Source of the DNA: Oryzias latipes
Taxonomy: Eukaryota; Chordata; Actinopteri; Beloniformes; Adrianichthyidae
Reading direction: 5' to 3'
NCBI RefSeq assembly: GCF_002234675.1
Contig: NC_019876.2
Location: 25,206,250 to 25,270,249, forward strand
DNA: 64,000 bases
The position numbers and the translations under genes were made by a program. Below the pieces are notes generated by a model. That model was not told where the DNA came from. It saw nothing but the letters and a program-made list of their open reading frames with translations, and ran no database searches. How positions within the stretch are numbered: position 1 is the stretch's first letter; the number at the start of each line of letters is the position of its first letter. Positions 2,626 through 39,639 of the stretch are shown piece after piece.

Positions 2626-2693
2626 CCAACAACAGCAGCAGCAGGCAGGGGAAGAGGAGGATGAGCGACCGCCAGCTAAGAGGCCACGAGGCA

Positions 2694-11441: not shown

Positions 11442-11545
11442 ACATATGATGTCATATCACTTCAAATGAAAACATTTGATGTCAAATGATGTCATATGAT
11501 GTAACATCATCTGTCATGATGTATTGTTAAAAGTTCCTTTATAGA
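11442..11545 (+). promoter_or_regulatory. Candidate promoter: repeated TGATGTCA-like motifs and a TATA-like box
   Basis: Between 11442 and 11524 variants of ATATGATGTCATAT and TTGATGTCAAATGATGTCAT recur, one mismatch from the CRE/AP-1-family palindrome TGACGTCA. TTTATAG at 11538-11544 lies about 134 bp before the start codon at 11678. Position and clustering suggest a core promoter; this is inference, as the transcription start is not known. The same arrangement precedes the second gene copy. Confidence 0.35.
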
Positions 11546-11677
11546 ACCAAAATCTTCAGATTTTCATCCACACAAGGTTCGTCTATTGCAAAGAACCAAG
11601 TATTAAGTTGAAGAAGTGCCATCAGTTACAAAGAACTTTTCTTGTCAAACTGATTAGAAACCTCAATAAATCGTACC

Positions 11678-14035
11678 ATGGAACCATCAAGACGCCGTCC
11701 TGTCCGAAAAAGCACCAAGAATTTGCAACTCAGCTATTTTGATTCTGTTGTGGAGAACGAGTCCACTTTTTATTTTAGGTTTGATTCTACCCGTCCTAAA
11801 AATCTAAACACTTTCATGGACTGGGATGACACTGACGAAGACAATGATTACCCTCCCCCTTCAGATGATGATAATGAGGAGGAGGAATTTCCTGAGACTC
11901 CAGGAACTCCTCACTATGATTATTCTCCCCTTTCTGAAAATGAGGATGAAGAATTTACTGAGATGCCAGAAACCCCTGAACCAAAAAAACAGCAGGATTG
12001 GGGAAACCTCAAGCCTAAAACCTGCCCAGAAAACCAAACCTTAGGGTTAAAACCCTTAAGTTTTGCTCCACCCGTCTCCTTTCGTCCAGCTGCATTCTTT
12101 CCTGTGAAGCCGGTGTCTGTCCCTAAATCAGCTCAGCCTGAAGAAATCAAACCCTTGGGAAAGGGAAAACAAAGTGCAACTGCTTTGGATGAGCCAACTT
12201 CAACCTCTGAGTCGACCTCAGTGGAGAACGCAGAAGCACTTCAAGTAGAGAACACTGCTCTGAAAAGTGAAGTAGAGCGTCTGAAGGAGCTTCTCCAGCA
12301 GAAAGATCAGAAGCTGGCGGATGCTGCTCTCAAAGCTGATCACTTTGAAGAACAGATGAGCCACAAGACAGAACTTTTAGCAAAAGAGCGTCTTCTAAAT
12401 GACCATCAGCTGGCATTAACAGAAGCCAAAAACCATCTGGCTAAAGAAAGAGAAGAAAACACCTCCCTCAAGCAACAAATGGCTGAACTAAGAAAAGCTC
12501 ATGAGCAGGATAAGGCCGCAAATGAAAAGAACTTTCTGGAGGCGCTCTCCAGTAAAGAGAAGAGCATGGAACAGTTAAGAGAAACCATCACAGGAAAAGA
12601 GACCATCATGAGCAAATTTGAAAAGGTCTCCAGGACAAGGATCGTAAAACTACTAGGTCAGATCGACGACCTAAAATTGGAGCAACGGAAGAAAGATTAT
12701 ATGCTGCGGGAAGCCGCTCGGAAAGCCGATGAGTTGGAAGAAGAGATGAGCCAAGAAAGACAGCAATGGCAGGAAGAAAAGTCCTCTGTCTTCCAAGAAA
12801 TGGCTCAGCTAAAGTCAGTTCAGGAGGACAAGGAGACCCAGGTGACTGAGTCTAAAAGAGTCTCCAAGAAAAAGATGGTCCAACTACTCCGTCAGATGCA
12901 CGACCTAAAAGTGCAGCATGAGCAGGAACATTTGGACCTCACCAGCAAATGGGAAATGGAGAAAGAGTGTCTTCTAAATTACCATCAGCTGACATTAACA
13001 GAAGCACTAACTCAGCTGGCTAAAGAAAGAGAAGAAAACACCTCCATCAAGCAAGAAATGGCTGAACTAAGAAAAGCTCATGAGGAGGATAAGGCCGCAA
13101 CTGAAAAGAACTTTTTGGAATTGCGCTCCAATAATGAGAAGAGCATGGAACAGTTAAAAGAAACCATCAGAGAAAAAGATGTGATCTTAAGCAATTCTGT
13201 AAGGGTCTCCAAGAAAAAGATCGTCCAGCTCCAAAATCAGATTGAGGGTCTAGAAAGGAAGCAACAGCAGGAACGTTTGGAGCTTACCAGAAATTTGGAA
13301 AAGGAGAAAGGGGATCTTCAATATCACTATGCTATGATGTTGGAGACAGAACAAGATCAGATGGATGAAGACAGAGAAGCATGGAAGAGGGAAAAGGACT
13401 CCATGCTGGAAAAAATAGCTGAATTAGAAAGAAAATGTGAGGAGCATAAGGCAGCCTGTTACCAAAGTGAAAAGAACATTTCAGAATTGCTCTCCAATAA
13501 CAAGAAGGCCATGGGAAAATTAAGAGAAACCATCAAAGAAAAAGATGCGGTCATAAGCAATTCTAAGGTCATCTTGAGGGAAAAGCTGGAGCAAAAAGAC
13601 CAACAGCTTGAGACGGTAAAAAAGGCCTCTGACAAGAAGAATTTGGACCTCAGCATGAAATTACACCAAGTGGAAGAAGAGCTTAAACAAGAGAGGGTCA
13701 AAACAAATCAAGCCAAACACAGCTTTGACCTGGAGGTAGAGGAGTCCACCAAATTAAGAGCTGCTTTGGTCCAGAAAGAACTGGAAGGCCAGCAGCAGCT
13801 GGAAGAAGAAAGACAACAGCTGGAAGAAGAAAAGTCCACCCTTTCACAACAAATCGCTCACCTAAAGAAAGTTGTCAAGAAGAAAAAGACCATCATCAGA
13901 AAAACTCAAGAGGATTTCCAGCTCCAAGTTCATCAACTACAGCAGCAGGTGGATGAGCTGAAAGAGAAGACGACAAAGAAAAATGTTGGTCGGAGGTTCC
14001 TGAACCTGTTTAGAAGATCTAGAAAAAAAGACTAA
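11678..14035 (+). CDS. Intronless 785-residue coiled-coil protein, unknown function (copy 1)
   Basis: One uninterrupted frame of 785 codons. The start sits in a strong Kozak context (TACCATGG) and no upstream in-frame extension is evident. Residues 1-50 are basic then aromatic. About 50-100 are highly acidic with Pro/Thr motifs (FPETPGTPHYDY, TEMPETPEP), 100-180 are proline-rich and disordered, and about 185-765 form a long heptad-type coiled coil. The coil has an internal repeat of about 193 residues (241-335 against 434-528, with a weaker third copy at about 571-640) sharing LAKEREENTS, MAELRKAHE and KSMEQL. The C-terminus is strongly basic (GRRFLNLFRRSRKKD), suiting a nuclear signal or membrane/nucleic-acid contact. 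I do not recognise the family. Lack of introns suggests an old retrocopy or a rapidly evolving lineage-specific gene. Myosin-tail or golgin-like hits would be expected from composition alone. An identical copy lies at 28242-30599. Confidence 0.8.
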   Translation: MEPSRRRPVRKSTKNLQLSYFDSVVENESTFYFRFDSTRPKNLNTFMDWDDTDEDNDYPPPSDDDNEEEEFPETPGTPHYDYSPLSENEDEEFTEMPETPEPKKQQDWGNLKPKTCPENQTLGLKPLSFAPPVSFRPAAFFPVKPVSVPKSAQPEEIKPLGKGKQSATALDEPTSTSESTSVENAEALQVENTALKSEVERLKELLQQKDQKLADAALKADHFEEQMSHKTELLAKERLLNDHQLALTEAKNHLAKEREENTSLKQQMAELRKAHEQDKAANEKNFLEALSSKEKSMEQLRETITGKETIMSKFEKVSRTRIVKLLGQIDDLKLEQRKKDYMLREAARKADELEEEMSQERQQWQEEKSSVFQEMAQLKSVQEDKETQVTESKRVSKKKMVQLLRQMHDLKVQHEQEHLDLTSKWEMEKECLLNYHQLTLTEALTQLAKEREENTSIKQEMAELRKAHEEDKAATEKNFLELRSNNEKSMEQLKETIREKDVILSNSVRVSKKKIVQLQNQIEGLERKQQQERLELTRNLEKEKGDLQYHYAMMLETEQDQMDEDREAWKREKDSMLEKIAELERKCEEHKAACYQSEKNISELLSNNKKAMGKLRETIKEKDAVISNSKVILREKLEQKDQQLETVKKASDKKNLDLSMKLHQVEEELKQERVKTNQAKHSFDLEVEESTKLRAALVQKELEGQQQLEEERQQLEEEKSTLSQQIAHLKKVVKKKKTIIRKTQEDFQLQVHQLQQQVDELKEKTTKKNVGRRFLNLFRRSRKKD

Positions 14036-14105
14036 GTGGACCCCCCACCACAGCTCTGGAGAGAGAGCCTTCTACCCCTCACCCCCACCACACCACCACA
14101 ACCCT

Positions 14106-14340
14106 GAAACGACCGCGGTGCAGCGGTAGGGCGGTCGACCCCTGATCGAATTGTTGCAGGTTCAATTCCTGTCTTGCACGCCCTTGTGTCCTTGGGCAGG
14201 ACACTGAACCCCACCATCCCTCTGGTGGAAGGTTGGCGCCAGTGTGTAAATGTGTGTGTGAATGTGTGTGTGACCGTAAAGCGCTTTAGGCCTTCAAAGA
14301 AGGTGGAAAAGCACTTTATAAGTAAACGCCATTTACCTCA
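14106..14340 (+). mobile_element. tRNA-derived SINE with L2-type tail, just downstream of coiled-coil gene
   Basis: Contains a box B-like GGTTCAATTCC (about 14159-14169), the body motif GTGTCCTTGGGCAGGACACT, a (TG)-rich middle, and the tail AAAGCGCTTTAGGCCTTCAA ... GCACTTTATAAGTAAACGCC, which resembles L2-clade LINE 3' ends. It begins about 70 bp after the stop codon and so may lie in the gene's 3' UTR. The A2 counterpart is at 30670-30904. Confidence 0.7.
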
Positions 14341-14862
14341 CACAGACCAAGCCCCCCCCCCCAACACCCACACACATTTAGGCTTTAACCCTTTAACACC
14401 TTAGATGGAGTTATGACCGTCCAAGAACGGCCAAACAATAGGAAAAGCTCCAGTGTTAAAGAGTTAAACATTGAATTGTTATCGTGTGGGTAAAAACTAG
14501 AGAGGCTTTTTCCTCTTTTTCTATTCTAAATGTGTATCTTGTAAATGTGTATCTTCTAGTTTATTTTTTAATTTATTGTTTTAAAGGTAACTTTCCACGA
14601 CTCCCCTTTTACGTCTTAACTAGGTTTTTCTTTGACTACTTCAGTTTTGTTTTACTTTTTGTCTGAATTTTTATTTTGTTTGGTTATGAAAAAAAAGTTT
14701 ATTTTAATGACTGTACAGTTTTAGTTTAGTTCCCTAATAATTAGAATAAAAAAATAAATAAAAAGAAATGACAAAAAATAGCAAAAGTATTATGTATTTT
14801 AAAAGTTACAAAAATCCCCCCTCCTTGAATTGCCACCTTATTGCGGTGGAGGGGTTTGCGTG
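14341..14862. other. Probable 3' flank of coiled-coil gene
   Basis: AT-rich, with several AATAAA/AATAAAAAAATAAATAAA sequences around 14743-14765 that could serve as polyadenylation signals. Visible identity to copy A2 ends near 14778. Confidence 0.35.
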
Positions 14863-15243
14863 CCCAAAAATATAAAATATGTAAATCAAGATTGGTCAGG
14901 GTTCAGATGCTAGTGGGAGTGTGTGTAGTGATTGAGTTCAACTTTTATGGATTTATTTTAATTAAAAAAAACGGGCTGCATGGTTAAATTGGCGTGTTCT
15001 TTCCATGCATGCGTGGGGTTTTCTCTGGGTGCTCTAGTTTCCCCCCACAACCAAAAATATAAAATATGTAAATCATGATTGGTCAGGGTTTAGAAGCTAG
15101 TGGGAGTGTGTGCAGTGATTGATTTCAATTTTTGTTTTTTTGTTTTTGTTTTTTAATTGAAAAAACGGGCTGCATGGTTAAATTGGCGTGTTCGTTCCAT
15201 GCATGCGTGGGGTTTTCTCTCGGTGCTCTAGTTTCCCCCCACA
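14863..15243 (+). repeat. Two tandem ~190-bp repeat units
   Basis: Each unit runs from CCAAAAATATAAAATATGTA through a TAGTGGGAGTGTGTG block to the end CCATGCATGCGTGGGGTTTT ... GTTTCCCCCCAC. Units start at 14863 and 15051. The CATGCGTGGGGTTTTCTCTG block is a widespread fish repeat motif. The same pair is present at about 31428-31805. Confidence 0.75.
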
Positions 15244-16069
15244 CACACAAAAAAGTGAAAATCACGATTCCTAAATGTAATGACACAAGACACTGGTAAT
15301 ATCCAGGAAAACATTGAAAAAGATTTTAAGAACATTTATTTTTTGTGGTTAAATTGAAGCTTTTAACAAAAATGTTCATGTTTACTTCCAGTCATTAATT
15401 AAAACTGTATTATATTTTATTTCCATGTATTTATGAAAATGTATATAATGTACAAAAACTAGTTATGTGTTAGCATGTAATAAAAAATTAAAATTAAAAA
15501 AAGGAAAAAAAAAACATATATATAATCCAGCCTCAGAGAGTCACTAAGCTGTGTACTTTCTGTGATGGTCCCAAGCCCATAGAAATGGAGAGGGTATATA
15601 TGCTGGTTGGACTCCAGGTTTTTCTTTGCTTCCATGTTCAGTCAAAAAAGCAAAAGGCACTGGTAGATGGAACTCTGGCTTCAGCTAGACGGGGTTCAAC
15701 TCCCTGCAGTGTCCTTGATAATTCTTTGACATGAAACATCAAAGTAAATAGTCTTCCAAAAAATATGATTCTAAAGTTTTAAAGATTATATGTTGATAAG
15801 AATTGATCAGGCATTGATGAATATAGCAATATTAAATGTATTTCATGTAAATGTATTCTTTTTTAACTCAGTTGCTTGCATTGGTTTGTATTATGATTGT
15901 ACCAACCTGACACTTTTTCCCCTTAAGTTTCAGATATGAGGAGGCAGCTGCTGTTCCTGGAAATGTCTTCATGTCAAACCAAAGATTGAGCTCCAGTTGA
16001 AAAATGCTTTAACCTCTTCTGTTCCAGAAAGGTTCAACACTATTGGGTTCAGAGAAAGTCTTGTGTTTT
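15244..16069. other. Duplicated spacer containing the empty LINE target site
   Basis: No gene. Bases 15849-15864 (AAATGTATTCTTTTTT) are the uninterrupted counterpart of the target duplicated on both sides of the LINE in copy A2 (32410-32425 and 39419-39434). Flanking sequence continues without a break into AACTCAGTTGCTTGCATTGG, matching AACCCAGTTGCTTGCATTGG after the LINE. Confidence 0.85.
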
Positions 16070-17060
16070 CTCTTCATAGTAAAACCATAGTAGCCTTCAA
16101 CACAAAGTGTTTCATATTTAAAAAAAACAATTGAAAATCCAAAATTCTAGCCAAAAAACAACATGAGATTTTCCAGTATTAATACTTTATAAATGAAATT
16201 GTGAGACATCAGAATAAATAGAAACATTCCAAAAATGAGACTTAATTTTTAAGTGGGGGGGTACAGGACACTGAGGTCCTGGTTGGCGTGTGGCACATCT
16301 TACCGTGTGGTAGCCAGGGCCTTTGACATGCCACGGTCCACTGTGAGGGACTTTGTCCACAGGACGGCAGACCGCATCCTCCAGCTGATGTACAGGGTCA
16401 TCCGGCTCCCCACTGTGAATGAACTACCATTAGTCGCCACTGGTTTAGAGCAGCTCTCTGGGTCTGCTGCTTTCCAAAAGGTCATGGGGAGCATTGATGG
16501 CTGCCACATAAGAATTAAGGCCCCAAAAGAAAATGCAGTTTATTTTAACAGGAATCTTTTTATTCCATTCAGATGCAGGCTGTATGTGATTCTAATGCCA
16601 CATTTTTAGATATTTTTGTTGGGTATCCAGGATCAGTCCATGATTCACGGGTTCTGCATAACAGACCAATTTATGCCAATCAAACATTCCCACCTGAAGG
16701 ATACATCCATTTCGGTGATGGTGGGTATCCCTGCATTGCTCATCCATCATGCTGCTCCATGCTAACAGAAGCAAATCACATTTTTTGCAGTTGGGAGGGA
16801 GCAGGAATAACAATGACAATGGGATGCTTGAAGTACCCACAGATATCCTTACCATACAGGCCATTGGCTGGAACAAGCGGAAGGTGGAAAAGCTTGACCA
16901 GACACTAGCTAAAAGATGCATCAAGGTAAAAACCAGATATGTTTTTTTAAGTGTTTTTACTTTTTTCATTCAAACATTACTCAACAATTTTGCAATGTTT
17001 TTGACTGTAAAAAGGATTTCTGAGGCATCAGCAGACCTTGATCAGCTGACAACATAACTA
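16070..17060 (+). pseudogene. PIF/Harbinger transposase remnant, plus strand (in A1)
   Basis: The plus strand reads the transposase helix-turn-helix (SYRVVARAFDMPRSTVRDFV), IDGCHIRIKAP, DIFVGYPGSVHDSRVL and GDGGYP motifs, in two frames shifted near 16560-16600. It then jumps to unrelated sequence, so the catalytic glutamate region is lost. About 180 bp of the N-terminal coding region present in the A2 copy (39815-40030) is deleted near 16250. About 16750-16925 encodes AIGWNKRKVEKLDQTLAKRC, which I cannot place. Frame breaks and the deletion make it non-functional. Confidence 0.75.
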
Positions 17061-17668
17061 TTGATACAAGAAGACACTGTCCAGCAATGGGTGTCTGATG
17101 TTAAAAAGTGGGCTGCAGGTGCTGTGGAACTTAATATACTGTATATATTGACACTTTTTTATGTCCAATAATTACTCTAGTAGTGAACTCTAGTAATATC
17201 AAGTGAACGCCTTTTTATAGCATCTTGCCTCAAGTCAAAATGTCCAAATACTTTTTGTTCCTAAAAGAATTGTGCTAACTTTTCTCCCCACAAAAACCAA
17301 CCTTGAAAATCCATTGAAGGACTTTATCTGAGCCCAGCAGAGGAAATATGAGCAGTATCACCAGACAGGTGAGGGATAAAATGCAAAGATCTTGAAGCAA
17401 ATATTATTTAATTTCATTTGCCACTTAGAAAGTTTTGTTTACAATGTCTTGGCATACATATTACTTCATATAAAACAAGTGGCCTTAAATCATTGCAATA
17501 AGAAAGATGTGCTGTACAGATATGTACCCTTGGATTTGTATCAGTATGAAATAAAAAATAAAGAGCTTTACATTTCATCAAAAATGTTATGTAAGGTTTT
17601 CTTTTTTGCCTCATTGGCTTATTGTTCTGCTTCAGGCATTTGGAATTTTTTCAGCTGTTATGAGACAG
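17061..17668. other. Duplicated spacer, no gene seen
   Basis: AT-rich; matches about 40800-41399 in copy A2 with scattered differences. No recognisable feature. Confidence 0.4.
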
Positions 17669-19412
17669 CTTTATGTTTCTGCTCATCACTCACTTATGGA
17701 GCTTTACTTGACCGTCATGTATACCAGCAGGTGGCAGTAGTAAACCAGAACATTGTTTCTGGAGACTAATATTTACACAGCTGTATTTTCAGCTGTTCAT
17801 GACAATATTTAATGTTTCTTTTAAATAACATTTTGAAAAAAGCTGACATTTCAAAGCTCAAAAACAGTGAATGTGTGGAAGCATTTGTGTAGCATAGTTA
17901 AAAATAAAAGTCAAAACCAGAAATACTTTTTCATTTTTAAAATAAGCTGCATTTTGTGGCTTTGTGACGGCTGTGCACTGTTGATGATTGTACACAGCTC
18001 ATCAGGACTACGTAGCAGCATTTCCGCCTTCCGCGGTCCTCCTTCAGATGTATAATCATGACCGTTAGAAAAGCACATTTAGAAGATATTCTCCTGCAGC
18101 TTGGCGCTGATTTTGCTGTTCGAGGACAGCTGGAGCCCCATCAACAACTACAGCACATTTCGCCATGCTAAACATTTGCCGTTTAGACCAACACGTATCG
18201 TCTAAATGTCCTTTTATTACTGTTATGGTTAATATTAAGGGCCTGCTCGCTCATAATTGTTTAATCTGTCTGGTCAGTGCTTTTTTCTTGGCTCCAAGGA
18301 CCCGATAGAAGGGTTAGCATGAGGCTAATACGTGCTAAAAGCATTAGCCATGGAGGAACTCCATAATGCAATAATTAGCATCTTGGATGTAAATATGTGG
18401 GAATAACATCAGCCTTTATTGTGTCTGGACACCACTGGAAAACCAAATTCATATAATGTTTTAGAGTTTCTCAGATCACTTCGGCGATCTGGAGCTTCGG
18501 ATGGCGGGGCGTCGCGCTCCGCTCCGCTACGCTACAGCTCTGCCAGTCCGAAGACAAAGCTAGTCCGGGGGGAAGTTTCGCCGAAAGAGGACCGCGGAAG
18601 GCAGAAGTCTCGCTGTACCATGCCAAGCCATGCTTCTTCTTAAGGAGGGTTGCAGGGGCCGCTCCTCTTAGAGTTTTCTTTTATCTTTGTCAGATTATGT
18701 TTGTTACTCTCTTTATTTCTCCATTCTGTAACTGTTTTTTTTAATGTTTTCATGTATTTCTGGGTTTTCATGTCAAATGGTCGAACATGCTTCATAAGTT
18801 TACATTTATTGGAGAATCTAAATTGTCCCGATGTGTTGATGTGAGTGTGTGGTTGTGCGGCCTTGCAGTTTGGCCAAACAGAATCAACTATTTACCCGGA
18901 CCATGGTATCATTTCTGATATGTACACTTCGTCAGCCATTAACCCTTACGTAACTTCATTCACATAACAACTACTTCACTATACATTTAAAGATACATTT
19001 CCCGACAATGGTACATTCCTTTTTTATGGCAATGGTACATTCCATTTTCATAAAGTCCCTTAAGGGCGGCCGAAAAAGCCTCAAGGGAGGGAAGGACAGA
19101 CCTTTGCTCCACCGAGGATCCAAAAGACCCAAAGTCCCACAGCAGCAACACAGGTCAAACCCCCGTATGGGTGCATGTGACTACGGCTTAATGTGTTAGA
19201 GAGAACAGCTCTGATAAAGTCAAAGTGTGCTGACCACACCAGCTGATGATTAACAGACCACTCCCAGAAACAGATTTTTGTGTTGAACTTTGGTTATCCT
19301 GTAAGTTAAAAGACACAAACTTCTGTGATATATTTGCTTTTGTCTTGGATCATATTTTTAAAATGGTAAATACTTTAAAATTGTTAGCATATATAATGCA
19401 GCGTTGAAACTG
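17669..19412 (+). repeat. Repeat unit R, copy 1 (right end of A1)
   Basis: Corresponds to 41400-43187 and 43527-45297. Contains a GC-rich patch (about 18480-18620), and a short tandem array of about 26-bp units with TACATTCCATTTTCATAA near 18995-19050 (about two units here, three in the other copies). Its interior around 18205-18370 is related to 20250-20420 inside the inverted-repeat transposon. No coding frame is convincing. Confidence 0.75.
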
Positions 19413-19991
19413 GCCTGGGTCGCATTTGAAAAGATCGGATCTGTGTCATTCAGACTGTCATGAAGAGATCGGAATTGGGGCAAAAAAATCGGAATTGGGT
19501 CGTTTCAGCCTGCAGTATGAACGTAGCCTAAGAGGCAGCTTTTATGTATTTTAGAAAAGGCAGACAGCAGAGAGGAGGAAAGAGCCATAAGAGAGGAGGA
19601 AACGGCCAGAAGAGAGGAAAAGAGACAAGACTCTTACTAGTTCTGGAAAAGATTGTTGAAAAAATGAAATGTTGTTTTTATTGTTCCAATATGTTTAATA
19701 AATTCATGAACAGAAATGACTTATTAACAAGTATTATTTAAACCTGAGCCATTTTTAACAATCTCAAAAACATCAAAGGTAACTATTTACATTTCATCCT
19801 ATATTTAACCCCTTTTTTTATACATCTTAACAATAATCGTGGTCTTCTAGAGCCATTTGTGGCACAGTTGGAGCTGACAGGAAAGCAGAGATTTGTCCTT
19901 GCAGACGGACGCCACTCTGCTCGTCCTGCTGGTTCCTGGCGTTGTCCTGCTGTGGCTCAACAACTGTGGGCTCCAACCAGTCCCCTTCACT

Positions 19992-21663
19992 AGCCGCGGT
20001 TACATGGGCAGAATATCTTGATCGGATCAATGGTCGGGTTAAAATTCACCCGTGCACATGGGCACAGAAAACCTTTTTCCGATTAGAACAAACGTTCCCA
20101 TGGCTCACACTCTCGTTCGGAATGAATAATTTGGGCATGCGCAGTAGTGTAAAATCACCCGGATGAGGAACTAGGTCCCGTTGTAAACAAACCGCTGCCA
20201 CAGACATTTATGCAGCAGCTCGGTAACATACGAGACGATCTTCCAAACGTGCTTTTATTAATGTTATGAATATTATGAAGTGCCTGTTCGCTCATCGTTA
20301 TATTTAATCTGTGTGGTCTGTGCTTTTTTTTGGAAGAATTTAGATGGACGTAAGCTAAGGACAGGCTAACACGGGCTAACATCATTAGCCTGATGGATGG
20401 ACACAAAATCCAGGACCGTGCGGGAAACGCAGCAATCTGCAGCTTTCTAAGGACTGAGTGACATTTATTTCTGCTCTGAAAAGTTCACACAGACCGCCCC
20501 AAAGCCACTCTGTGAGCTAGCGGCCCAAGCTCTGTTCGAACACGGTTCCTCCTGAGTCCTGCAGCCGGTAACCCAGAGCGGCGGGACGGCTCGTCGCAGT
20601 CTGAATTCTCCCACACAACAAAACAACAAAACGCACATGTAAAAAAGCACCCCCCCCCCACACACACACCCACACACACAAAATTATTAATCCAGCTGCT
20701 CTGCTCACTCAGGTGCCAGTGGACCGAGTGAGCGTCGGGGCCACGAAGCAGTCCTCCTCTGAATCTCCCCCGTGAGGGGTGAAAGAGAGGGGAGAGCCGG
20801 AGGGGCGAGAGCGGAGTGGCGTTTTTCACGGGGCGTCCGCAAAGCAGCTGGTCGGTCCCGTATGCGCTCCAAAGCTTTCTCTCAGCGAAACACCGTCTAT
20901 GCATGACGTAAACCAGAGCAGCAGTGACACACGATCGGAATGACCGTTTACATGCTCCACGATCGGATAAACGATCGGTATAACCCACCTATCTCGATCG
21001 GAAAGAAATTCTGATCCGATTGAGTCTGATCGGGGCAGAGTATTCCGAACGGCGCGTTTACATGACGCATTTTCTTTCCGATCAGGCGTTCATTCCGATT
21101 ACTTTTGTCAGGACCAGGTCTTGAGGACCAACAAAATATGACAGACCCAGGAGTGAGAACTTCAGAGTTTATTTGAGGACCAGAGCAGGCAGGATGATGG
21201 CTGAAACTTGACACCAGAGGGAGCTGAGGCAGACTTGTGGGTGATGAGGAATGAGAGGAGGAGGGGAACGGAGCAGAGTCCAGAGCCGGTCTAGGAATGA
21301 GGAAGTCCGTGAACACAGAGTTTTGTAGATGAGGAATGTCTTACTGCTTGGTATCTTGAGAGAGGACTTGGCAGTGAGAAACTGGAGGTCACAGGCAGGT
21401 AGGTTGATTGTTGGAAGCTTGAGGCAGGCAGGCAGGCAATCTGAGAGCGTGGAGCAAAAAGCAGGCTTGCAGACAGACTGAAACCACAAAGCATGAGTAA
21501 GCTGGGAATCAGGCAGAAGACTTGACGTTCCAGCAGTGAGTGGAGCTGCATGGCAGCAATATATACTCAAGTGAACAGGTGGAGTGAATCAGAGGTGACG
21601 AGCAGCAGCTGGGGGGGCAGGGCAGCTGCTGTCATGACAACTTTTGCCCATGTAAACGCGGCT
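19992..21663. mobile_element. Non-autonomous inverted-repeat DNA transposon inserted in Harbinger copy 2
   Basis: Begins AGCCGCGGTTACATGGGCA and ends with the complement of AGCCGCGTTTACATGGGCA (18 of 19 matching). It is flanked by the 3-bp duplication ACT (19989-19991, 21664-21666), and copy 1 at about 3180 shows the empty site with a single ACT. Subterminal regions carry many GATCGGA/TCCGATC motifs, mostly at 20930-21100. No transposase is encoded. A 3-bp duplication fits Harbinger or CACTA-like groups, but I cannot assign a superfamily. Confidence 0.8.
21106..21639. mobile_element. Solo LTR nested in the inverted-repeat transposon
   Basis: The 534-bp unit starts TGTCAGGACC and ends GTCATGACA (TG...CA with short inverted ends) and is flanked by ACTTT on both sides (21101-21105, 21640-21644). 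No internal genes. Orientation is not fixed by the sequence. This is the third layer: LTR in inverted-repeat transposon in Harbinger. Confidence 0.75.
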
Positions 21664-22540
21664 ACTGATGCACATATTGTGCAGGATGGCGCTGCAGGCA
21701 ATGATTTTGACGGCAAATTTTGTTTTAACTTCCGATGCCCCAGAAATATGGCTCTCCACCTTGTCTTCATCATTCCAAAGGCTCTCTCCACCACAGAGCG
21801 TGCCTTGGCGTGGTGCCGGTTTTATCGGGCCTCAACTGGATTTCTCAGGGATTCCCTGTAGGGTGTTAGCAGCGTGATGGGTTGTGCAATGCAGGGATAC
21901 CCACCATCACCTAGAAGGATGTATCCTTCAGGTGGGTACGTTTTATTGGCGTAAATTGGGCTTTTGCGCAGAACCCGTGAGTCATGGACCGATCCAGGAT
22001 AACCAACAAAGATGTCTAAAAATTTGGCATTCGAGTCACAAACAGCCTGCATTTGAATTGAATAAAAAAGCGTCCTGTTAAAATAAGAAGCTGGATCTTC
22101 TTTTGGGGCCTTAATTCTTATGTGGCAGCCTTCAATGCTCCCCACGACCTTTTGGAAGGCATCAGACCCAGCGAGCTGCTCAAAACGAGAGGCGACTAAT
22201 GGCAGTTCAGCCCTACTGGGAAGGCGGATGACCCTGGACATCAGCTGGAGGATGCGGCCTGCCGTCCTGTGGACAATGTCACTTACAGTGGACCGTGGCG
22301 TGTCAAAGGCCCTGGCTACCACACGGTAAGATGTTCCACACGCCAGCCAGAAAAGGAACATCAGGACCTCAGTCTCCTGTGGCCCCCCCCAGAGTGTGAG
22401 GAACCCGAAGCTGCTCCACCAGAGCTTGATGGTCCTGCGGGTCAACCGAAAATCCGGTCTTGTGTCTGACTGACCGTCAGCGTAAAGGGCCAGGACAGAA
22501 ACCTTTATGCTGGGAAGGCAGTAGATGCGCGGAAGATCCT
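21664..22540 (-). pseudogene. PIF/Harbinger transposase, better-preserved copy 2
   Basis: A 207-residue frame (22445-21822) carries SYRVVARAFDTPRSTVSDIV, then HIRIKAPKEDPAS, DIFVGYPGSVHDSRVLR and an intact GDGGYPCIA motif. After a small shift, the next frame carries VVERAFGMMKTRWRAIFLG, so all three catalytic regions are recognisable. The first motif reads GSIEGCHI instead of GSIDGCHI, so the first catalytic aspartate appears replaced by glutamate. The N-terminus (LPRIYCLPSIKVSVLALYAD near 22530-22450) is out of frame after a poly-C run at 22383. The C-terminal end is separated by the insertion at 19992-21663. Confidence 0.8.
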
Positions 22541-22784
22541 GTAAAATGGAACATTATTTCATTTTGGAAACTAAATCTCAGTTTTGGAATGTTTCTATTT
22601 ATTCTGATGTCTTACAGTTTAGTTTATAAAGTATTTTTGAATGCTGGAAAATCTCAAGTTTTTTTGGCTGGGTTTTTGGGTTTTCATATCAATTTTTAAA
22701 AATGAAAGCATTTTTGTATGAAACAAGTGTGCTGTAAATCTTTTTTCTAAATAAACTGATACAGAATACTTTGTGTTGAAGGCT

Positions 22785-23983
22785 GATACGGTTTGATGGC
22801 GTACCCCCAAATGCTAAAGTTTAACTCACAAGTTGTTCATATCTGGCTAGGGCAGCCAGAGGAAATCTTCTGAAAATGAGACGTCTGCTTCTGCCGCTGT
22901 GAGAAGCCTGGTTCTGCTCCTTGCCGCCTTGTCAGTTCGTTTTTGGACTGATGTTGCAAAAAACAATCAAATTATTGCCAACAGAAAAACGGCCAGATTA
23001 ATATTCCCCATTTTCTCCTCGAACGGGACAGTAAAGGGTCAAGCGGCGCGAAAATAAATATAAACATTGCCATGGACTGGTAAACTTGCCGCTTTATTTC
23101 TGAACAAATACATTAGATCCACACCAATGTGTTTGTAATTTTATTATTTATAAATCAGTCAAATTTTACATCATCAGAACACAGCAGATTCATAAACACA
23201 GTCTTCGTAAAATCTTTATTTATATTTTTTTTTACTTTGGATAATTTGGTTTCGTCCTAATCTGTTAAAGTATAACTAGTTCATCTCCAGACCAGGTGGT
23301 GGCGGTAATGCGCCACTTTGTTTTCGTGTCAAGCGCCATATGAATAACACCCGAAAGAGAAAAGTAGTGAGCACGGGTGTCCGAATTGCTTTGAAGATTC
23401 AGAGAACTATAGAGAACTATATAGTGCCGCACTATATAGGGTTTTAGTAGTTAGGGGTTAGGGTAGGAATTCGGACACAGCCAGAGTTTGTGTGGTGCAA
23501 GATTTGAAGTGTTTTCTTTCATTTTGACAAAATAAATAAGTTATGGTAAAACTACAGAACAATATAACACACAGAACATTCATTCAAAACATTAAACTTT
23601 TAAGACATAACTAGTTTGTCTTAAAATACTACTAATAAATGTAACTTATACTGTAAATAACTGTAAATAATAAACATGATTTTTCCTTAGATTTGGGGAT
23701 TAAGGGTCAAACCAAGAAATGTACGTTTATGAATCTTTTCAAAACGGGGATTTCAAAGTCTCTGAATTAACAACGATTTTCCATGGAATCTAGGTAAGTC
23801 TTGGCTTTTAGTTTTTTTATTGTTGCAATAATTGGCCATATATATTCGGTTGCTGAATATCTGGTGCATCCCTATCTGTTAGTACACAGAAAACTCCTTC
23901 CTGCTTTTAATAGAGCTTTATCGGATTTGTTAAGACAATAAACGATCATTTGGCAATGGATTTAAAAAATGTTTTTCACATTT
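22785..23983. other. Spacer with a 102-bp miniature inverted-repeat element
   Basis: No gene. At 23377-23478 GTGTCCGAATT ... AATTCGGACAC forms an 11-bp perfect terminal inverted repeat around a short core with ACTATATAG palindromes and a GGGTTAGGGTAGG stretch. This resembles small MITEs common in fish. The rest is AT-rich and unassigned. Confidence 0.55.
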
Positions 23984-23995
23984 TTAATTTTCTTT

Positions 23996-24399
23996 TACCT
24001 GGGTCATGGGTACCAGCTTCTGTCCCTGTAAACCACCTTTCTTGGCATACACCTTCAAGAGACGAGGAGACAGATCATCCAATTCCATGAAGAACTTTGA
24101 GTGCAGCTGGACTGTTGTGATTCTCTGGAACTCTGCATTCAACTTTAAAAAAATCCAAACACAAAGAAAACAAAGTAACAAACATTTCCCAATTGATGAG
24201 CTCCACAGTCTTTCCCAAAGTGTTATTCCTTCACAACTTAATTTGCTTACCTGACCCACGCTGAGGAGTGCTGGCCACCTTGTTTTGAAATCAGGAATGA
24301 TGGGTGCCTCTACGACAACATCCTGCCTTCCACGTGAAAAGGACTTCTCCATCATTGACACATTGACGTCATTGTTTTGCTGACTTCCAATTTGCAAAT
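23996..24399 (-). pseudogene. Two-exon fragment of a repetitive fish gene family (IPDFKTRWPAL type)
   Basis: Minus-strand translation gives MMEKSFSRGRQDVVVEAPII, PDFKTRWPALLSVGQ, then a GT-AG intron (about 24251-24144). It continues LNAEFQRITTVQLHSKFFME, LDDLSPRLLKVYAKKGGLQG and VPMTQ before a GT donor near 23999. This pattern occurs in a multicopy teleost protein family often annotated as SAMD3-like or uncharacterised, and probably spread with mobile DNA. Upstream and downstream exons are absent here, so it is a fragment. Family naming is from memory of the motif. Confidence 0.5.
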
Positions 24400-25624
24400 C
24401 TTACAGAACAGGAAAAGGAACTTTATTATTTTTCACAACTCCGAAACAGCGGCTGGCCGCGCATGTATGCCCTCCACCACTCACACACCCCCCCCCCCCC
24501 CCCCCCCCCCCCGTTCCTCAGCTCAGACACACTGGTTTTAACACACACTCACAAGTGCTCACTCCCCCCTCCCTTCCTGCATGGCGTGATTTCAGACACA
24601 CCGGTTTTGGCACGCGGGCGCGCGCTTACACACACACACACATATACACACTAGACTTTGAAATGCGCCTTATGCTCGTGAAAATACCGCACGTCTGAAC
24701 AATCTTGTCGGAAAAACGTTTAAAGAGGACAACGCTGAAAGAAGTCCGGCAGCATGCAACACGAAGAAAAACAAACCCTGTAGGCTAGGCTTTTAATATG
24801 AATTTTTTATCGCAACAGGTGATTCAAACAGTGTTTGCATAATATTCACAATATTAATCAGATACATTACAAGAACTGCCCCCAGCCCCTTCCCCCACCC
24901 CCGCAAGGCTTACCCGGTCCGCGGCCACAAAATAGAAAAAAACTATACATTTAAGACTGCGCTTATCACTGGTGATCCAGAAGAAAAAAAAGCTATTTTG
25001 AGGACAACTTTTATGAAAAAAAAGTTAACACTTATCACTTGTGAAGGACAAAAAATAAAATACAGTTGTGAAAAATTAAAAAATAAATACACAAATAATA
25101 ATAATACAATATGGAAAGTTTATTTTAAACAGTCATTCTTTTAGAACTTATGAAAGTAGTAAGAAAGCCTACGTGTCATTGCACTGCAGCTAGCTTACCC
25201 TGCGTGCACATGCTAACGGTCGTAATAAAAGAAAAACTCTTGTCAATCATGTTCACTAACGCATTTAAATGTTGGTAAAACTTATAAATGAACCATAGAC
25301 AGTATATTAAAACAAGATATCGAAAGAATTCACGAGGATTCACAAGGATTGTTTTCAGCTTACCTGTTCAGTGCTCGGGATCTGTGAAAAATGTAACTGT
25401 TTCCGTCTTCTTCCCTCCCTTTACACGTCTTCCGGTTTTGAGTTTGAACATGATTTTTTCAAGCCACCTCAACATGATTAAATTTAATAAATATGAAACG
25501 AAGCAAAATCACGGGAATATAACATGAATTTAATATGTTTACGTTAAAAACACGTTTTTATTATGTACAAATTAAATAAAACATTTTCATTAGATGTACA
25601 AGGTGTCAAATTCCTTTTTTTGAG
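24400..25624. other. Spacer, simple repeats only
   Basis: Contains a long poly-C tract (about 24488-24513), a CA-rich stretch (about 24630-24652) and AT-rich DNA. No gene or transposon end is recognisable. It ends at the left border of copy A2. Confidence 0.45.
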
Positions 25625-28005
25625 TGTATGAGCTTGCATACGCTGTTGTACTCGGAAGAATCCGTGAATAAAACACACAAAATGTTCAGTGGTCTGCTGT
25701 TCATTTAAAGTGTGCAACACATTTCTGAGTATTTCTTTATTAATTCAGGAGCAGATGAAAAAGTGCTGTTTGAAAAACCAAGTAGATCTGATGGGTGGGG
25801 GGCTGTAAGATAGCAGGAGAGTGTAAACATAGGGATGATTGGAAATTGGAGCAGGCTTCTAAATTACTCCATGCCATATGCTCCGCCCAAAATATAGAGG
25901 TGAATTTCTGATGAACTCTGCAAAAAACCCAGTTTTATTTTGTTTTTGTCTAAAATCGGCATAATCATTATTAAAAGACCACTGGCAACACTTTTACTAT
26001 GAATCAAAAAATGACTGGAACAAAAAACCCGTGCCATTTTCCAGGACATAGTTTCTGCAGAGCGACAGTTTATCACAAACTCACCTCTTCACAGTTTATC
26101 TGCTCCATTCTATCTTTATCTCCATTCTCCTGTCCACTTTTATCATCATCCTTCTTTAGGTCTCCTTGGTCCCCTTTTCTAGTTCTCCTCATTATTTCCT
26201 CAATTCTCCATTTGGACTGTTGGCGCAGAAGTGAGCCATGACCCCTTTGTTTACACTCTCTTCCACTAACTTACAGCCCCTCACATTACCGGTGCAACAA
26301 AAATGGTGAGCAATATTGACTTTTTGATCCAGATTCCAGCTCAGACGAGGTAAACAAAGACGTTTATGGATCTATTTGTCTGTAAGTGGATGTTCTCAAA
26401 AGTCCAGTTTTTTTTTCCACAGAATCTACAGCTGCTTGTCCTTCTCTTGTCTATGAGGTGAAATATTTAAAATCTTTTTTGTGTTAATAGTTCTGAGCTC
26501 TCAGGTTCTGGTTCTCTGGTTGGGTGGTGGACACAGTGCTGTCAGCAGATTAGTGTATTTTACTGATAAAGCCTGAGTTTATAGGTTGGGGATAATTAAG
26601 TCACATTGTTGTGGGACATGATGACAAACATTGAAATGAGAGACTTTCTAATGAGCTTAGGCAAAGAGGAAGGGGACAGTTGGAGGTTGGTGTGGTAAAC
26701 ATCAGGCTCCTCCATGACGGTGGCCTTTACCTCCTGAGAGTATCCTGGGGGACACGCCTCAGTAAATACAGAGCAGGACTCTGTGCCAAGTCTCACTAAA
26801 CGACAAGTAGTCTGTTTTTTGTAAATTAAATGGTATTAAAAAGGCTTTGTTTGACGAAGACTGGGACATTTTCTAAAACAGAAACAGGACTTGCACTTTA
26901 GGCGAAGGTGGAGCTGGCCAAAGTCCGTGTGTTTCCCAGTCGACCGGACTGCCTTCACCCGTTAGTGTTGGTCCTTTGTTAGCGGCCTTTGGATGATACA
27001 GCCAGTAATGTGTTGGCTATAGGCCAAAGTTGGTTTATTTTTTCCAACTGAACAAAGGATAACATGCAGCATCAACGCCACAGGCGTGCAAGCACCAATG
27101 GAAAAAAAGACTATTGGAGCAGAATTTAAATCAAGTAAAATAAGGGGGAACAAACAGATAATTAAAAAAAAGAACTTTCATTATGAGATAATTTCTGCAT
27201 CATTTTAGGTTTTAAATCTTGTTTATGAACGAAAATGTGATTAAAAGTCATTCTTAAAGAAGGAATTGGAACATTTAACACCCCTCCATTAGCAGTTGTG
27301 AAAGTTCTATTTTGTTATTCTTGGTATTTTCAAGGGTTGTAGACAGGGCCTCAATAAGAGGTGTCAAACTGGTTTTGGTTCGGAGGCCACATTCAACCCG
27401 TCTGATCTCAAGTGGGCCGGACCAGTAACGTAAAAGCAAAAAAAAACAGCTTTGTTTTTCTTTTTTTTACTGAGTTAGAAAAAAGGCCTCAACCAACATG
27501 GTATCCTTTTCACTTATTATTACACATTCATTCATTCCCAGAGGCCAATGGATCTCAAAGAAAATGCATTTCACTTTTAAAAAAAGTCTGTTTGTTCAAT
27601 TTGATGCAGACTGAATATTTTACATCTGACACTGAAGCAATCCTGATAGTAAACTCAAGAGGGGGCTACAGAAAAAAATGAAACCCACTGCCTAAAATGT
27701 AAATGTGCAAATCAATGAAAAATTCAACTAAATTGAACTTGAAACATTTGTGAACATAACAAGAATTTGGAGTTAACCTCCCTTTCTCTCCTGAAACTTC
27801 ACCCGGCTGTCAATATCGGGATTCAAATCCTTTTTAGGTTGTTTGATTGTGTGTGTTTTCCAAAGGTGTGTTTTGTATGCTTCCTTAACATAAAAATAGA
27901 TTTTAGGTAAAAATTTTAAGTAATACACCCCCCCCCCCCATATCAAAGCTGATTGCATCACTACGCATCACACCACCAATGACATAACTCATACATCACA
28001 TTAGA

Positions 28006-28109
28006 ACATATGATGTCATATCACTTCAAATGAAAACATTTGATGTCAAATGATGTCATATGATGTAACATCATCTGTCATGATGTATTGTTAAAAGTTC
28101 CTTTATAGA
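28006..28109 (+). promoter_or_regulatory. Candidate promoter of coiled-coil gene copy 2
   Basis: Same cluster of TGATGTCA-like motifs (28006-28088) and TTTATAG (28102-28108) as upstream of copy 1, at the same distance from the start codon. Confidence 0.35.
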
Positions 28110-28241
28110 ACCAAAATCTTCAGATTTTCATCCACACAAGGTTCGTCTATTGCAAAGAACCAAGTATTAAGTTGAAGAAGTGCCATCAGTTACAAAGAAC
28201 TTTTCTTGTCAAACTGATTAGAAACCTCAATAAATCGTACC

Positions 28242-30599
28242 ATGGAACCATCAAGACGCCGTCCTGTCCGAAAAAGCACCAAGAATTTGCAACTCAGCTA
28301 TTTTGATTCTGTTGTGGAGAACGAGTCCACTTTTTATTTTAGGTTTGATTCTACCCGTCCTAAAAATCTAAACACTTTCATGGACTGGGATGACACTGAC
28401 GAAGACAATGATTACCCTCCCCCTTCAGATGATGATAATGAGGAGGAGGAATTTCCTGAGACTCCAGGAACTCCTCACTATGATTATTCTCCCCTTTCTG
28501 AAAATGAGGATGAAGAATTTACTGAGATGCCAGAAACCCCTGAACCAAAAAAACAGCAGGATTGGGGAAACCTCAAGCCTAAAACCTGCCCAGAAAACCA
28601 AACCTTAGGGTTAAAACCCTTAAGTTTTGCTCCACCCGTCTCCTTTCGTCCAGCTGCATTCTTTCCTGTGAAGCCGGTGTCTGTCCCTAAATCAGCTCAG
28701 CCTGAAGAAATCAAACCCTTGGGAAAGGGAAAACAAAGTGCAACTGCTTTGGATGAGCCAACTTCAACCTCTGAGTCGACCTCAGTGGAGAACGCAGAAG
28801 CACTTCAAGTAGAGAACACTGCTCTGAAAAGTGAAGTAGAGCGTCTGAAGGAGCTTCTCCAGCAGAAAGATCAGAAGCTGGCGGATGCTGCTCTCAAAGC
28901 TGATCACTTTGAAGAACAGATGAGCCACAAGACAGAACTTTTAGCAAAAGAGCGTCTTCTAAATGACCATCAGCTGGCATTAACAGAAGCCAAAAACCAT
29001 CTGGCTAAAGAAAGAGAAGAAAACACCTCCCTCAAGCAACAAATGGCTGAACTAAGAAAAGCTCATGAGCAGGATAAGGCCGCAAATGAAAAGAACTTTC
29101 TGGAGGCGCTCTCCAGTAAAGAGAAGAGCATGGAACAGTTAAGAGAAACCATCACAGGAAAAGAGACCATCATGAGCAAATTTGAAAAGGTCTCCAGGAC
29201 AAGGATCGTAAAACTACTAGGTCAGATCGACGACCTAAAATTGGAGCAACGGAAGAAAGATTATATGCTGCGGGAAGCCGCTCGGAAAGCCGATGAGTTG
29301 GAAGAAGAGATGAGCCAAGAAAGACAGCAATGGCAGGAAGAAAAGTCCTCTGTCTTCCAAGAAATGGCTCAGCTAAAGTCAGTTCAGGAGGACAAGGAGA
29401 CCCAGGTGACTGAGTCTAAAAGAGTCTCCAAGAAAAAGATGGTCCAACTACTCCGTCAGATGCACGACCTAAAAGTGCAGCATGAGCAGGAACATTTGGA
29501 CCTCACCAGCAAATGGGAAATGGAGAAAGAGTGTCTTCTAAATTACCATCAGCTGACATTAACAGAAGCACTAACTCAGCTGGCTAAAGAAAGAGAAGAA
29601 AACACCTCCATCAAGCAAGAAATGGCTGAACTAAGAAAAGCTCATGAGGAGGATAAGGCCGCAACTGAAAAGAACTTTTTGGAATTGCGCTCCAATAATG
29701 AGAAGAGCATGGAACAGTTAAAAGAAACCATCAGAGAAAAAGATGTGATCTTAAGCAATTCTGTAAGGGTCTCCAAGAAAAAGATCGTCCAGCTCCAAAA
29801 TCAGATTGAGGGTCTAGAAAGGAAGCAACAGCAGGAACGTTTGGAGCTTACCAGAAATTTGGAAAAGGAGAAAGGGGATCTTCAATATCACTATGCTATG
29901 ATGTTGGAGACAGAACAAGATCAGATGGATGAAGACAGAGAAGCATGGAAGAGGGAAAAGGACTCCATGCTGGAAAAAATAGCTGAATTAGAAAGAAAAT
30001 GTGAGGAGCATAAGGCAGCCTGTTACCAAAGTGAAAAGAACATTTCAGAATTGCTCTCCAATAACAAGAAGGCCATGGGAAAATTAAGAGAAACCATCAA
30101 AGAAAAAGATGCGGTCATAAGCAATTCTAAGGTCATCTTGAGGGAAAAGCTGGAGCAAAAAGACCAACAGCTTGAGACGGTAAAAAAGGCCTCTGACAAG
30201 AAGAATTTGGACCTCAGCATGAAATTACACCAAGTGGAAGAAGAGCTTAAACAAGAGAGGGTCAAAACAAATCAAGCCAAACACAGCTTTGACCTGGAGG
30301 TAGAGGAGTCCACCAAATTAAGAGCTGCTTTGGTCCAGAAAGAACTGGAAGGCCAGCAGCAGCTGGAAGAAGAAAGACAACAGCTGGAAGAAGAAAAGTC
30401 CACCCTTTCACAACAAATCGCTCACCTAAAGAAAGTTGTCAAGAAGAAAAAGACCATCATCAGAAAAACTCAAGAGGATTTCCAGCTCCAAGTTCATCAA
30501 CTACAGCAGCAGGTGGATGAGCTGAAAGAGAAGACGACAAAGAAAAATGTTGGTCGGAGGTTCCTGAACCTGTTTAGAAGATCTAGAAAAAAAGACTAA
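28242..30599 (+). CDS. Intronless 785-residue coiled-coil protein, unknown function (copy 2)
   Basis: Encodes a protein identical over all 785 residues to copy 1 (11678-14035), with the same TACCATGG start context, acidic/proline-rich N-terminal third, long repeated coiled coil and basic C-terminus. Such identity with an intact frame means the duplication is very recent, homogenised by gene conversion, or an assembly duplicate. A real second locus is supported by different outer flanks and by the LINE 1.8 kb downstream that copy 1 lacks. Expression of either copy cannot be judged from sequence. Confidence 0.8.
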   Translation: MEPSRRRPVRKSTKNLQLSYFDSVVENESTFYFRFDSTRPKNLNTFMDWDDTDEDNDYPPPSDDDNEEEEFPETPGTPHYDYSPLSENEDEEFTEMPETPEPKKQQDWGNLKPKTCPENQTLGLKPLSFAPPVSFRPAAFFPVKPVSVPKSAQPEEIKPLGKGKQSATALDEPTSTSESTSVENAEALQVENTALKSEVERLKELLQQKDQKLADAALKADHFEEQMSHKTELLAKERLLNDHQLALTEAKNHLAKEREENTSLKQQMAELRKAHEQDKAANEKNFLEALSSKEKSMEQLRETITGKETIMSKFEKVSRTRIVKLLGQIDDLKLEQRKKDYMLREAARKADELEEEMSQERQQWQEEKSSVFQEMAQLKSVQEDKETQVTESKRVSKKKMVQLLRQMHDLKVQHEQEHLDLTSKWEMEKECLLNYHQLTLTEALTQLAKEREENTSIKQEMAELRKAHEEDKAATEKNFLELRSNNEKSMEQLKETIREKDVILSNSVRVSKKKIVQLQNQIEGLERKQQQERLELTRNLEKEKGDLQYHYAMMLETEQDQMDEDREAWKREKDSMLEKIAELERKCEEHKAACYQSEKNISELLSNNKKAMGKLRETIKEKDAVISNSKVILREKLEQKDQQLETVKKASDKKNLDLSMKLHQVEEELKQERVKTNQAKHSFDLEVEESTKLRAALVQKELEGQQQLEEERQQLEEEKSTLSQQIAHLKKVVKKKKTIIRKTQEDFQLQVHQLQQQVDELKEKTTKKNVGRRFLNLFRRSRKKD

Positions 30600-30669
30600 G
30601 TGGACCCCCCACCACAGCTCTGGAGAGAGAGCCTTCTACCCCTCACCCCCACCACACCACCACAACCCT

Positions 30670-30904
30670 GAAACGACCGCGGTGCAGCGGTAGGGCGGTC
30701 GACCCCTGATCGAATTGTTGCAGGTTCAATTCCTGTCTTGCACGCCCTTGTGTCCTTGGGCAGGACACTGAACCCCACCATCCCTCTGGTGGAAGGTTGG
30801 CGCCAGTGTGTAAATGTGTGTGTGAATGTGTGTGTGACCGTAAAGCGCTTTAGGCCTTCAAAGAAGGTGGAAAAGCACTTTATAAGTAAACGCCATTTAC
30901 CTCA
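30670..30904 (+). mobile_element. tRNA-derived SINE, A2 counterpart
   Basis: Same element as 14106-14340, carried along in the duplication and not an independent insertion. Confidence 0.7.
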
Positions 30905-31427
30905 CACAGACCAAGCCCCCCCCCCCAACACCCACACACATTTAGGCTTTAACCCTTTAACACCTTAGATGGAGTTATGACCGTCCAAGAACGGCCAAAC
31001 AATAGGAAAAGCTCCAGTGTTAAAGAGTTAAACATTGAATTGTTATCGTGTGGGTAAAAACTAGAGAGGCTTTTTCCTCTTTTTCTATTCTAAATGTGTA
31101 TCTTGTAAATGTGTATCTTCTAGTTTATTTTTTAATTTATTGTTTTAAAGGTAACTTTCCACGACTCCCCTTTTACGTCTTAACTAGGTTTTTCTTTGAC
31201 TACTTCAGTTTTGTTTTACTTTTTGTCTGAATTTTTATTTTGTTTGGTTATGAAAAAAAAGTTTATTTTAATGACTGTACAGTTTTAGTTTAGTTCCCTA
31301 ATAATTAGAATAAAAAAATAAATAAAAAGAAATGACATAAAAAAGCAAAAGTATTATGTATTTTAAAAGTTACAAAAATCCCCCCTCCTTGAATTGCCAC
31401 CTTATTGCGGTGGAGGGGTTTGCGTGC

Positions 31428-32417: not shown

Positions 32418-32453
<36 letters not shown>

Positions 32454-32458
<5 letters not shown>

Positions 32459-39415: not shown

Positions 39416-39639
39416 TAAAAATGTATTCTTTTTTAACCCAGTTGCTTGCATTGGTTTGTATTATGATTGTACCAACCTGACACTTTTCCCCTTAAGTTTC
39501 AGATATGAGGAGGCAGCTGCTGTTCCTGGAAATGTCTTCATGTCAAACCAAAGATTGAGCTCCAGTTGAAAAATGCTTTAACCTCTTCTGTTCCAGAAAG
39601 GTTGAACACTCTATTGGGTTCAGAGAAAGTCTTGTGTTT

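Follow-up and report, generated by a model that had tools for sequence, protein, structure and literature searches.

What kind of gene stands twice in this window (the 64,000 bp of DNA analysed here, C18:25206250-25270249 of the medaka genome) without a single base changed between its copies, and what might the RNA elements behind each copy do for it? The first-pass annotation had described an intronless gene in two identical copies, and base-by-base comparison bears this out, as the two open reading frames are 2358 bp each, have 0 differences and encode the same 785 amino acids. About 1.5 kb 3' of each stop codon, on the same strand, lies a predicted type-P1 twister ribozyme followed by a U-rich/A-rich stretch and a tRNA-like element (Table 1). 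This arrangement of gene and module hints at an unusual route to mRNA ends.

Table 1. Features of the window discussed in the text, with positions counted from its first base.
Feature	Position	Strand	Remark
785-codon intronless coiled-coil ORF, copy 1 (cc785 family)	11678..14035	+	start context TACCATGG
785-codon ORF, copy 2	28242..30599	+	0/2358 bases unlike copy 1
In-frame internal coil repeats	12383-12645 and 12962-13224		86.7% identical, NG86 dN/dS 1.47
Tract without substitutions, copy 1	9056..14773	.	poly-C run at 11359 differs in length
Tract without substitutions, copy 2	25625..31337	.	
Three AATAAA signals (14745, 14753, 14757)	14745..14762	+	possible ordinary poly(A) site upstream of module
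194-bp tandem duplication	14864..15253	+	junction of the gene's own 3' flank and the module-bearing element
A-rich tract directly 5' of ribozyme	15470..15514	+	A-rich in 22/22 module copies, sequence divergent
Type-P1 twister ribozyme, copy 1	15515..15602	+	predicted scissile bond 15523/15524 (U/A)
Type-P1 twister ribozyme, copy 2	32076..32163	+	predicted scissile bond 32084/32085 (C/A)
U-rich stretch and A-rich tract AAAAAAGCAAAA	15619..15655	+	adjoins tRNA-like element, as in malat1 candidate L010
mascRNA/menRNA-type tRNA-like element, copy 1	15656..15713	+	48.6 bits, gathering 42.5 (Rfam)
mascRNA/menRNA-type tRNA-like element, copy 2	32217..32274	+	48.6 bits (Rfam)
Stretch homologous to 3' region of same-genome Helentron	15600..16038	+	twister outside homology
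LINE ORF, 1247 aa, open	34791-38534	-	endonuclease + reverse transcriptase (Pfam)
Truncated twister-like sequence	52366-52413	+	29.2 bits (Rfam)

The duplicated pair and its gene family

The lack of substitutions that had been noted around the gene was confirmed by aligning 8900-15900 with 25469-32460. No substitution falls in 9056-14773, the sole indel (at 11359) gives copy 1 five additional C, and the right-hand limit of about 14778 was correctly placed, with the first differences at 14774 and 14779. Across 14774-15864 the copies differ at 17 separate places. The several percent of divergence noted for the distal parts was also found. On the right side it rises stepwise, from about 2% to 6.5-7.3%, with 93.5% identity between 15849-16248 and 39419-39810 and 92.7% between 16279-19412 and 40031-43187, two matches that are split in copy 2 by a LINE-bearing insertion. 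On the left side, 2693-4295 and 19525-22781 are 91-95% identical. Part of this left flank (3382-4231) overlaps a DDE-transposase repeat that also matches 39671-40507 in inverted orientation, and thus the distal matches do not necessarily all derive from one duplication. Homology ends abruptly at 9056/25625, so that the proposal of a tract centred on the gene is not supported and its centre tells little.

Compared with the window copies, the two other C18 copies are ~2-3% divergent in the gene and 3.5-5.5% in the 3' part, and the chance of zero differences in 5718 bp is 4e-18 even at a divergence of 0.7%. Zero substitutions in 5718 bp, set against 2-5.5% among the C18 copies, thus indicate a recent exchange or a recent duplication, barring assembly error. 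Of the gene conversion or second exchange suggested previously, what stands is a recent homogenisation, by conversion or fresh duplication, which fits the tract. It is also conceivable, but improbable, that assembly or polishing copied one consensus onto two loci. Nothing but a poly-C length differs over 5.7 kb, and homopolymers are error-prone. The flanks, the LINE-bearing insertion and the sequence from 14774 onward nonetheless differ between the loci, so there are two of them, and the abrupt step at 14774 would require a further assumption.

Locally there are indeed two copies of the gene, but it belongs to a large multicopy family, here called cc785. A protein search of the whole genome (734,051,031 bp in 25 contigs) and a hand count of its matches gave at least 34 open copies with a frame of at least 609 aa, along with at least about a dozen disabled loci with in-frame stops; these counts are lower bounds drawn from the best 57 of 160 candidates scored. 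The open copies lie on C18, C21 and C5 (four each), C11, C4, C17 and C8 (two each) and C23 (one, and 13 in an array). Both strands carry copies on seven of these eight chromosomes, and all 14 copies on C23 share one strand. On each of C4, C5, C8, C11, C17, C18 and C21, copies are arranged as inverted pairs, separated by about 18 to 640 kb.

The acidic PETP-rich N-terminus, coiled coil and basic tail ascribed to the protein are supported, and the tail, GRRFLNLFRRSRKKD, is almost invariant at the C-terminus of 10 aligned copies. The family was rightly called unrecognised: the best match in a Pfam profile search scored 15.2 bits against a cut-off of 27, no solved structure in the PDB matched the 785-aa protein at E below 0.6, and the viral contigs scanned with it held no relative. 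Residues change fast in cc785 while the frame persists. Values of dN/dS were 0.48-1.02 among 13 paralog pairs (10 ORFs), indicating that the reading frame is kept under weak or diversifying constraint on residues, and for the internal coil repeats the ratio is around 1 (NG86 dN/dS 0.79-1.47 in four pairs). In the copy at C18:24593642 the stop is lost and 22 extra residues follow. The window pair is best described as a recently homogenised member of a multicopy family of intronless coiled-coil genes that evolve fast.

The twister ribozyme and the tRNA-like element

Both twisters match the Rfam twister-P1 model over its full length (1-68 of 68), copy 1 at 15519-15598 with 59.7 bits (E 6e-11 in the window) and copy 2 at 32080-32159 with 55.8 bits (E 8e-10), scores that do not reach the gathering score of 67.2. 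Helices P1 to P4 are all present in both matches, and extending P1 to 15515-15602, where CATATATA pairs with TATATATG, yields a P1 stem of 8 bp. The predicted cuts in Table 1 were placed at what we take to be the cleavage site of the twister motif. The helices shared with other twisters of this genome were assessed in 18 twisters of three sequence types, counting P2, P4 and T1 and excluding P1 and P3. All 198 cells are paired, and 5 of 11 pairs show double changes, with 33 double-sided changes in total. P2 and P4 covary, and covariation was 0.444 versus at most 0.150 when the alignment was slid. Two of the five measures do not stand out from shuffles, since 195 of 500 shuffles had as many double-changed pairs and 477 of 500 as many pair types, and P1 varies among module copies without compensation. 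The minimum-energy fold of 15510-15720 contains P1, P2, P3 and P4, and the folding energy of this segment is not unusual, at z -1.04 and with 29 of 200 shuffled sequences folding equally well.

The twister is followed by a short hairpin, a U-rich run and then the A-rich tract that adjoins the tRNA-like element. U-rich motif 2 is complementary to part of this tract, with a partial predicted duplex of UUUGCUU and AAGCAAA. The 3' end of MALAT1/NEAT1 likewise has an A-rich tract adjoining an RF01684 tRNA-like element and a partly complementary U-rich stretch, but the window module differs from it in lacking U-rich motif 1, in having a twister in front and in the position of its tRNA-like half, which in this genome sits behind coding frames and a Helentron ORF. 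In the window module a single U-rich run was found and no U-rich motif 1 with its GC stem. Two Helentron modules also lack motif 1, and the identical test detects it in locus L010; a MALAT1 triple helix is thus unsupported for the window. L010 (C10:12319833-12322890; element at C10:12321333) has U-rich motif 1, a long stem, U-rich motif 2 and an A-rich tract, as well as the highest-scoring mascRNA (69.8 bits), and judging from these features it is probably the true malat1 of the medaka genome. We considered whether the window loci could be MALAT1 itself and rejected this, as they have no U-rich motif 1 and the best malat1 candidate is on C10. When the A-rich/tRNA junction was sought as a pattern, a single match came up (L001), by our estimate about what chance would give. 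MALAT1-like elements have been described in dozens of anole transcripts and some fish, according to PMC10869381 (citing Zhang et al. 2017).

With twister type P1 (RF03160) the window twister shares the helices, the pseudoknot T1 and the core nucleotides; it differs in lying in vertebrate DNA, behind coding ORFs. Hammerhead ribozymes occur in the 3' UTRs of mammalian genes. Like the window module, these and the HDV-like ribozymes of R2 elements are self-cleaving RNAs in an mRNA or a mobile element, but their folds are other than that of the twister. We know of no tRNA-like element adjacent to either. The HDV-like ribozymes of R2 elements are mentioned in PMC7761336, as are RTE retrotransposons with truncated twisters at their 5' end, from which the window-type twister differs in being complete, with its 8-bp P1. 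Among the papers searched, none joins the twister ribozyme with mascRNA, none joins it with medaka and, as far as titles and the starts of abstracts go, none concerns a link between Helitrons and MALAT1.

Carriers and conservation of the module

Searching the genome with 15510-15720 gave 22 full modules, one partial module (C18:25524572) and 17 matches to the tRNA-like half only; these counts refer to the best 40 of 61 candidates, and all 22 full modules were read. Fourteen full modules lie behind members of a second intronless coiled-coil family (cc2), four behind cc785 and four behind other frames, one of which was read. The orientation is sense in 18 of 18 placed full modules, or 19 of 19 with the partial module included. 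The cc2 proteins are mostly about 330-400 aa long, end in the tail KKGKKVKRFSFTKFWRRLF and, when compared with the 785-aa protein by BLAST, gave nothing better than E 0.3. In 15 of 17 cc2 loci a same-strand module follows at a distance of 0.5-1.3 kb, one of these modules being partial. Broken cc2 copies occur among the 15 carriers (three with in-frame stops and one fragment on C9), and thus the module is not always behind a working frame. In cc785 the module is found behind 4 of the 34 listed copies, all of them C18 paralogs. No module match lies behind the other 30, and the sole copy from another chromosome that was read well past its stop (L074, on C5) has no GG[TC]CCCAA downstream. Four modules on C10 have neither cc785 nor cc2 upstream; the one read, L096, follows open frames of 423 and 264 aa that gave no Pfam match.

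The tRNA-like half has a wider distribution. Among 30 tRNA-like loci with 1.5 kb upstream read, five follow cc2, two follow cc785 and four follow Helentron endonuclease frames (L016, L018, L019 and L020), while 19, including L010, have no recognised upstream frame. The locus of L019, read further as L075, contains an open ORF of 2592 aa with Helitron_like_N (E 7.8e-28), PIF1, OTU and endonuclease domains, and the tRNA-like half lies 3' of it. This Helentron, an endonuclease-encoding Helitron, thus has behind it the same tRNA-like half as the window module, but the window copies differ in that no Rep/helicase ORF was found in them, and L075 and the window have no DNA match except in the 3' half. 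Judged from this homology, the element that follows the C18 members of cc785 shares its 3' half with a Helentron. Behind copy 2, the Helentron-like 3' part is broken up by the insertion that carries the LINE ORF.

The ribozyme core and the tRNA-like element are better conserved than their flanks. Pairwise mismatch among the 22 modules, with gaps not counted, is 1.2% in the twister core, 3.9% in the whole twister and 4.3% in the tRNA-like element, compared with 15.2% upstream, 10.5% in the linker and 9.6% downstream. The least conserved sequence of the module is the A-rich tract before P1 (25.1%). The A-rich tract beside the tRNA-like element is intermediate, with 6.9% mismatch and 12.3% gaps; in the P3 loop mismatch reaches 12.7%. 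Compared column by column with the flanks, the twister gives a p value of 2.7e-11 and the tRNA-like element one of 2.1e-7, values that are indicative only since columns are not independent and the copies are related. The cleavage context N/AA (the slash marks the cut) and the pattern GGTCCCA.GCCC are kept in all 22 full modules, and the core is unchanged in 20 of 22, with one core change each in L088 and L089; L085 has lost one P2 pair. The tract before P1 keeps its composition, with a mean A content of 72% (minimum 53%) just before P1 versus a mean of 38% at -105 to -60. Between the two window copies there are 0 differences in 15524-15820 (297 bp) versus 16 in 14774-15523, and at that upstream rate the probability of 0 differences is about 0.002 (calculated by hand).

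A core kept in 20 of 22 modules, in sense position behind coding frames, is consistent with an off-switch, in which self-cleavage would cut off the poly(A) tail and thereby reduce expression, with the tRNA-like element as the mark of a cleaved by-product. We think this reading very unlikely, as it leaves unexplained both the A-rich tract found exactly 5' of the cut in 22 of 22 modules and the conserved tRNA-like element.

Possible routes to the mRNA 3' end

A tentative reading, and one that we hold to be quite possible, is that the transcript enters the element and that the twister, together with RNase P and RNase Z, sets the 3' end for this gene. The cc785 transcript would read through into the module-bearing element, and the twister would cut at 15523/15524 and leave an mRNA with a template-encoded A-rich tail. 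RNase P acting at 15655/15656 and RNase Z acting near 15713 would free the tRNA-like piece. The end or stability of the RNA may thereby be set without ordinary polyadenylation, or in competition with it, and the device may have spread partly by transposon. The position, strand, copy number, conservation and covariation of the module are established directly. Counting against the mechanism for this gene are the many cc785 copies without a module and the AATAAA signals ahead of it, and the shared element starts about 0.9 kb after the stop and may thus be a separate insertion.

An alternative possibility, in our view almost as likely, is that the module is a bystander that came from neighbouring mobile DNA, such as the 3' ends of cc2 or Helentrons, and has no role for cc785. 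A single insertion or fusion behind the C18 clade would have been copied by segmental duplication, and the gene itself would end near the poly(A) site at 14.77 kb. The structure of the junction is in keeping with such an event. Homology between the window copy and a C5 copy of cc785 runs from 10848 to 14871, exceeding the length of the ORF, and stops there, and the element shared with cc2 loci begins at about 14965. The AATAAA cluster could end the mRNA before the module, module matches are lacking behind 30 of the 34 cc785 copies listed, and since all four carriers are C18 paralogs the association may reflect one event. It is harder to reconcile a bystander with the absence of any difference between the RNA elements of the window copies over 297 bp, with the presence of the same module behind cc2 in sense, or with the C3 coiled-coil genes, which bear another twister type 0.5-0.75 kb past the stop and include one with 34% identity to cc785.

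Twisters also occur elsewhere in this genome. At least 61 twister-P1 matches were found, seven of them over the Rfam threshold, among the best 62 of 52,353 first-look candidates, which do not include the two of the window; there were none in 14 control genomes. Matches to the tRNA-like element number at least 65, with 59 over threshold, among the best 68 of 102,428 candidates. By our reading, 22 of 30 twister loci inspected with 1.5-kb flanks lie in sense orientation past the 3' end of a multicopy family's coding frame, tandem copies among the 30 not being independent. These frames are nine PIM-like kinases on C9, two HIPK-like kinases, an acidic gene on C15 and two sets of coiled-coil genes, seven on C3 that share the tail HRGFLSFFKRSKKKE and three at C18:0.8 Mb; the remaining eight loci have no such coding gene. 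The kinase domain was confirmed by Pfam in both kinases tested, and we presume that PIM and HIPK are the appropriate names. In 21 of the 30 loci the longest frame lies in sense rather than in antisense, the three at C18:0.8 Mb not being among them. On C6, a type-B twister stands behind a third intronless coiled-coil/acidic frame (L073, C6:8590000-8595900; 560 codons between stops), with a mascRNA element about 200 nt further on.

A broader reading, which we consider rather unlikely as a whole, is that a vertebrate possesses a polyadenylation-independent 3'-end system for coding mRNAs, in which a twister trims the transcript behind an A-rich tail that the template encodes, and a MALAT1-like tRNA mimic is cut away by RNase P. 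A Helentron would spread the tRNA-like half, at least two unrelated multicopy intronless families, perhaps expressed in the germline or the earliest zygote, would have acquired the full device, and the kinase and further coiled-coil families would carry other twisters in the same place. The earliest zygotic genes of fish are generally short and intronless, which may serve as a lead. If the module works as we propose, some vertebrate coding mRNAs would end by means of a self-cleaving ribozyme and tRNA-processing enzymes and not only by cleavage and polyadenylation, with part of the device supplied by a transposon. Helentrons would then be one suggested source of some of the scattered MALAT1-like loci, and natural twisters would be tied to coding genes in a fish, which would open their biological role to tests in a laboratory species.

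Several further observations concern the surroundings of twisters. Two additional twister/mascRNA pairs (L090 and L091) lie close to L073 on C6. In the C3 array (L060-L063, L068 and L069; C3:4.87-4.91 Mb), a tRNA-Lys(ttt) gene lies about 520 nt past the twister on the same strand at six loci, and at L067 (C3:4.42 Mb) tRNA-Gln and tRNA-Lys genes lie downstream of the twister. This order of twister and tRNA on C3 resembles the order of twister and tRNA-like element in the window. Among the 27 of 30 twister loci scanned with ARAGORN, the other 20 gave no tRNA, and L053 has a weaker Rfam tRNA. The truncated twister-like sequence in the right part of the window stands in surroundings that we take to be a common fish RTE/SINE tail. 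A pattern related to it has 1008 matches in the genome with up to 2 mismatches, versus 0 for the reversed control, and among those of the 1008 that were listed there was no type-B twister near cc785 copies elsewhere. Nearby, 52140-52245 resembles what is presumably an exon of an acyl-CoA oxidase gene (acox3-like).
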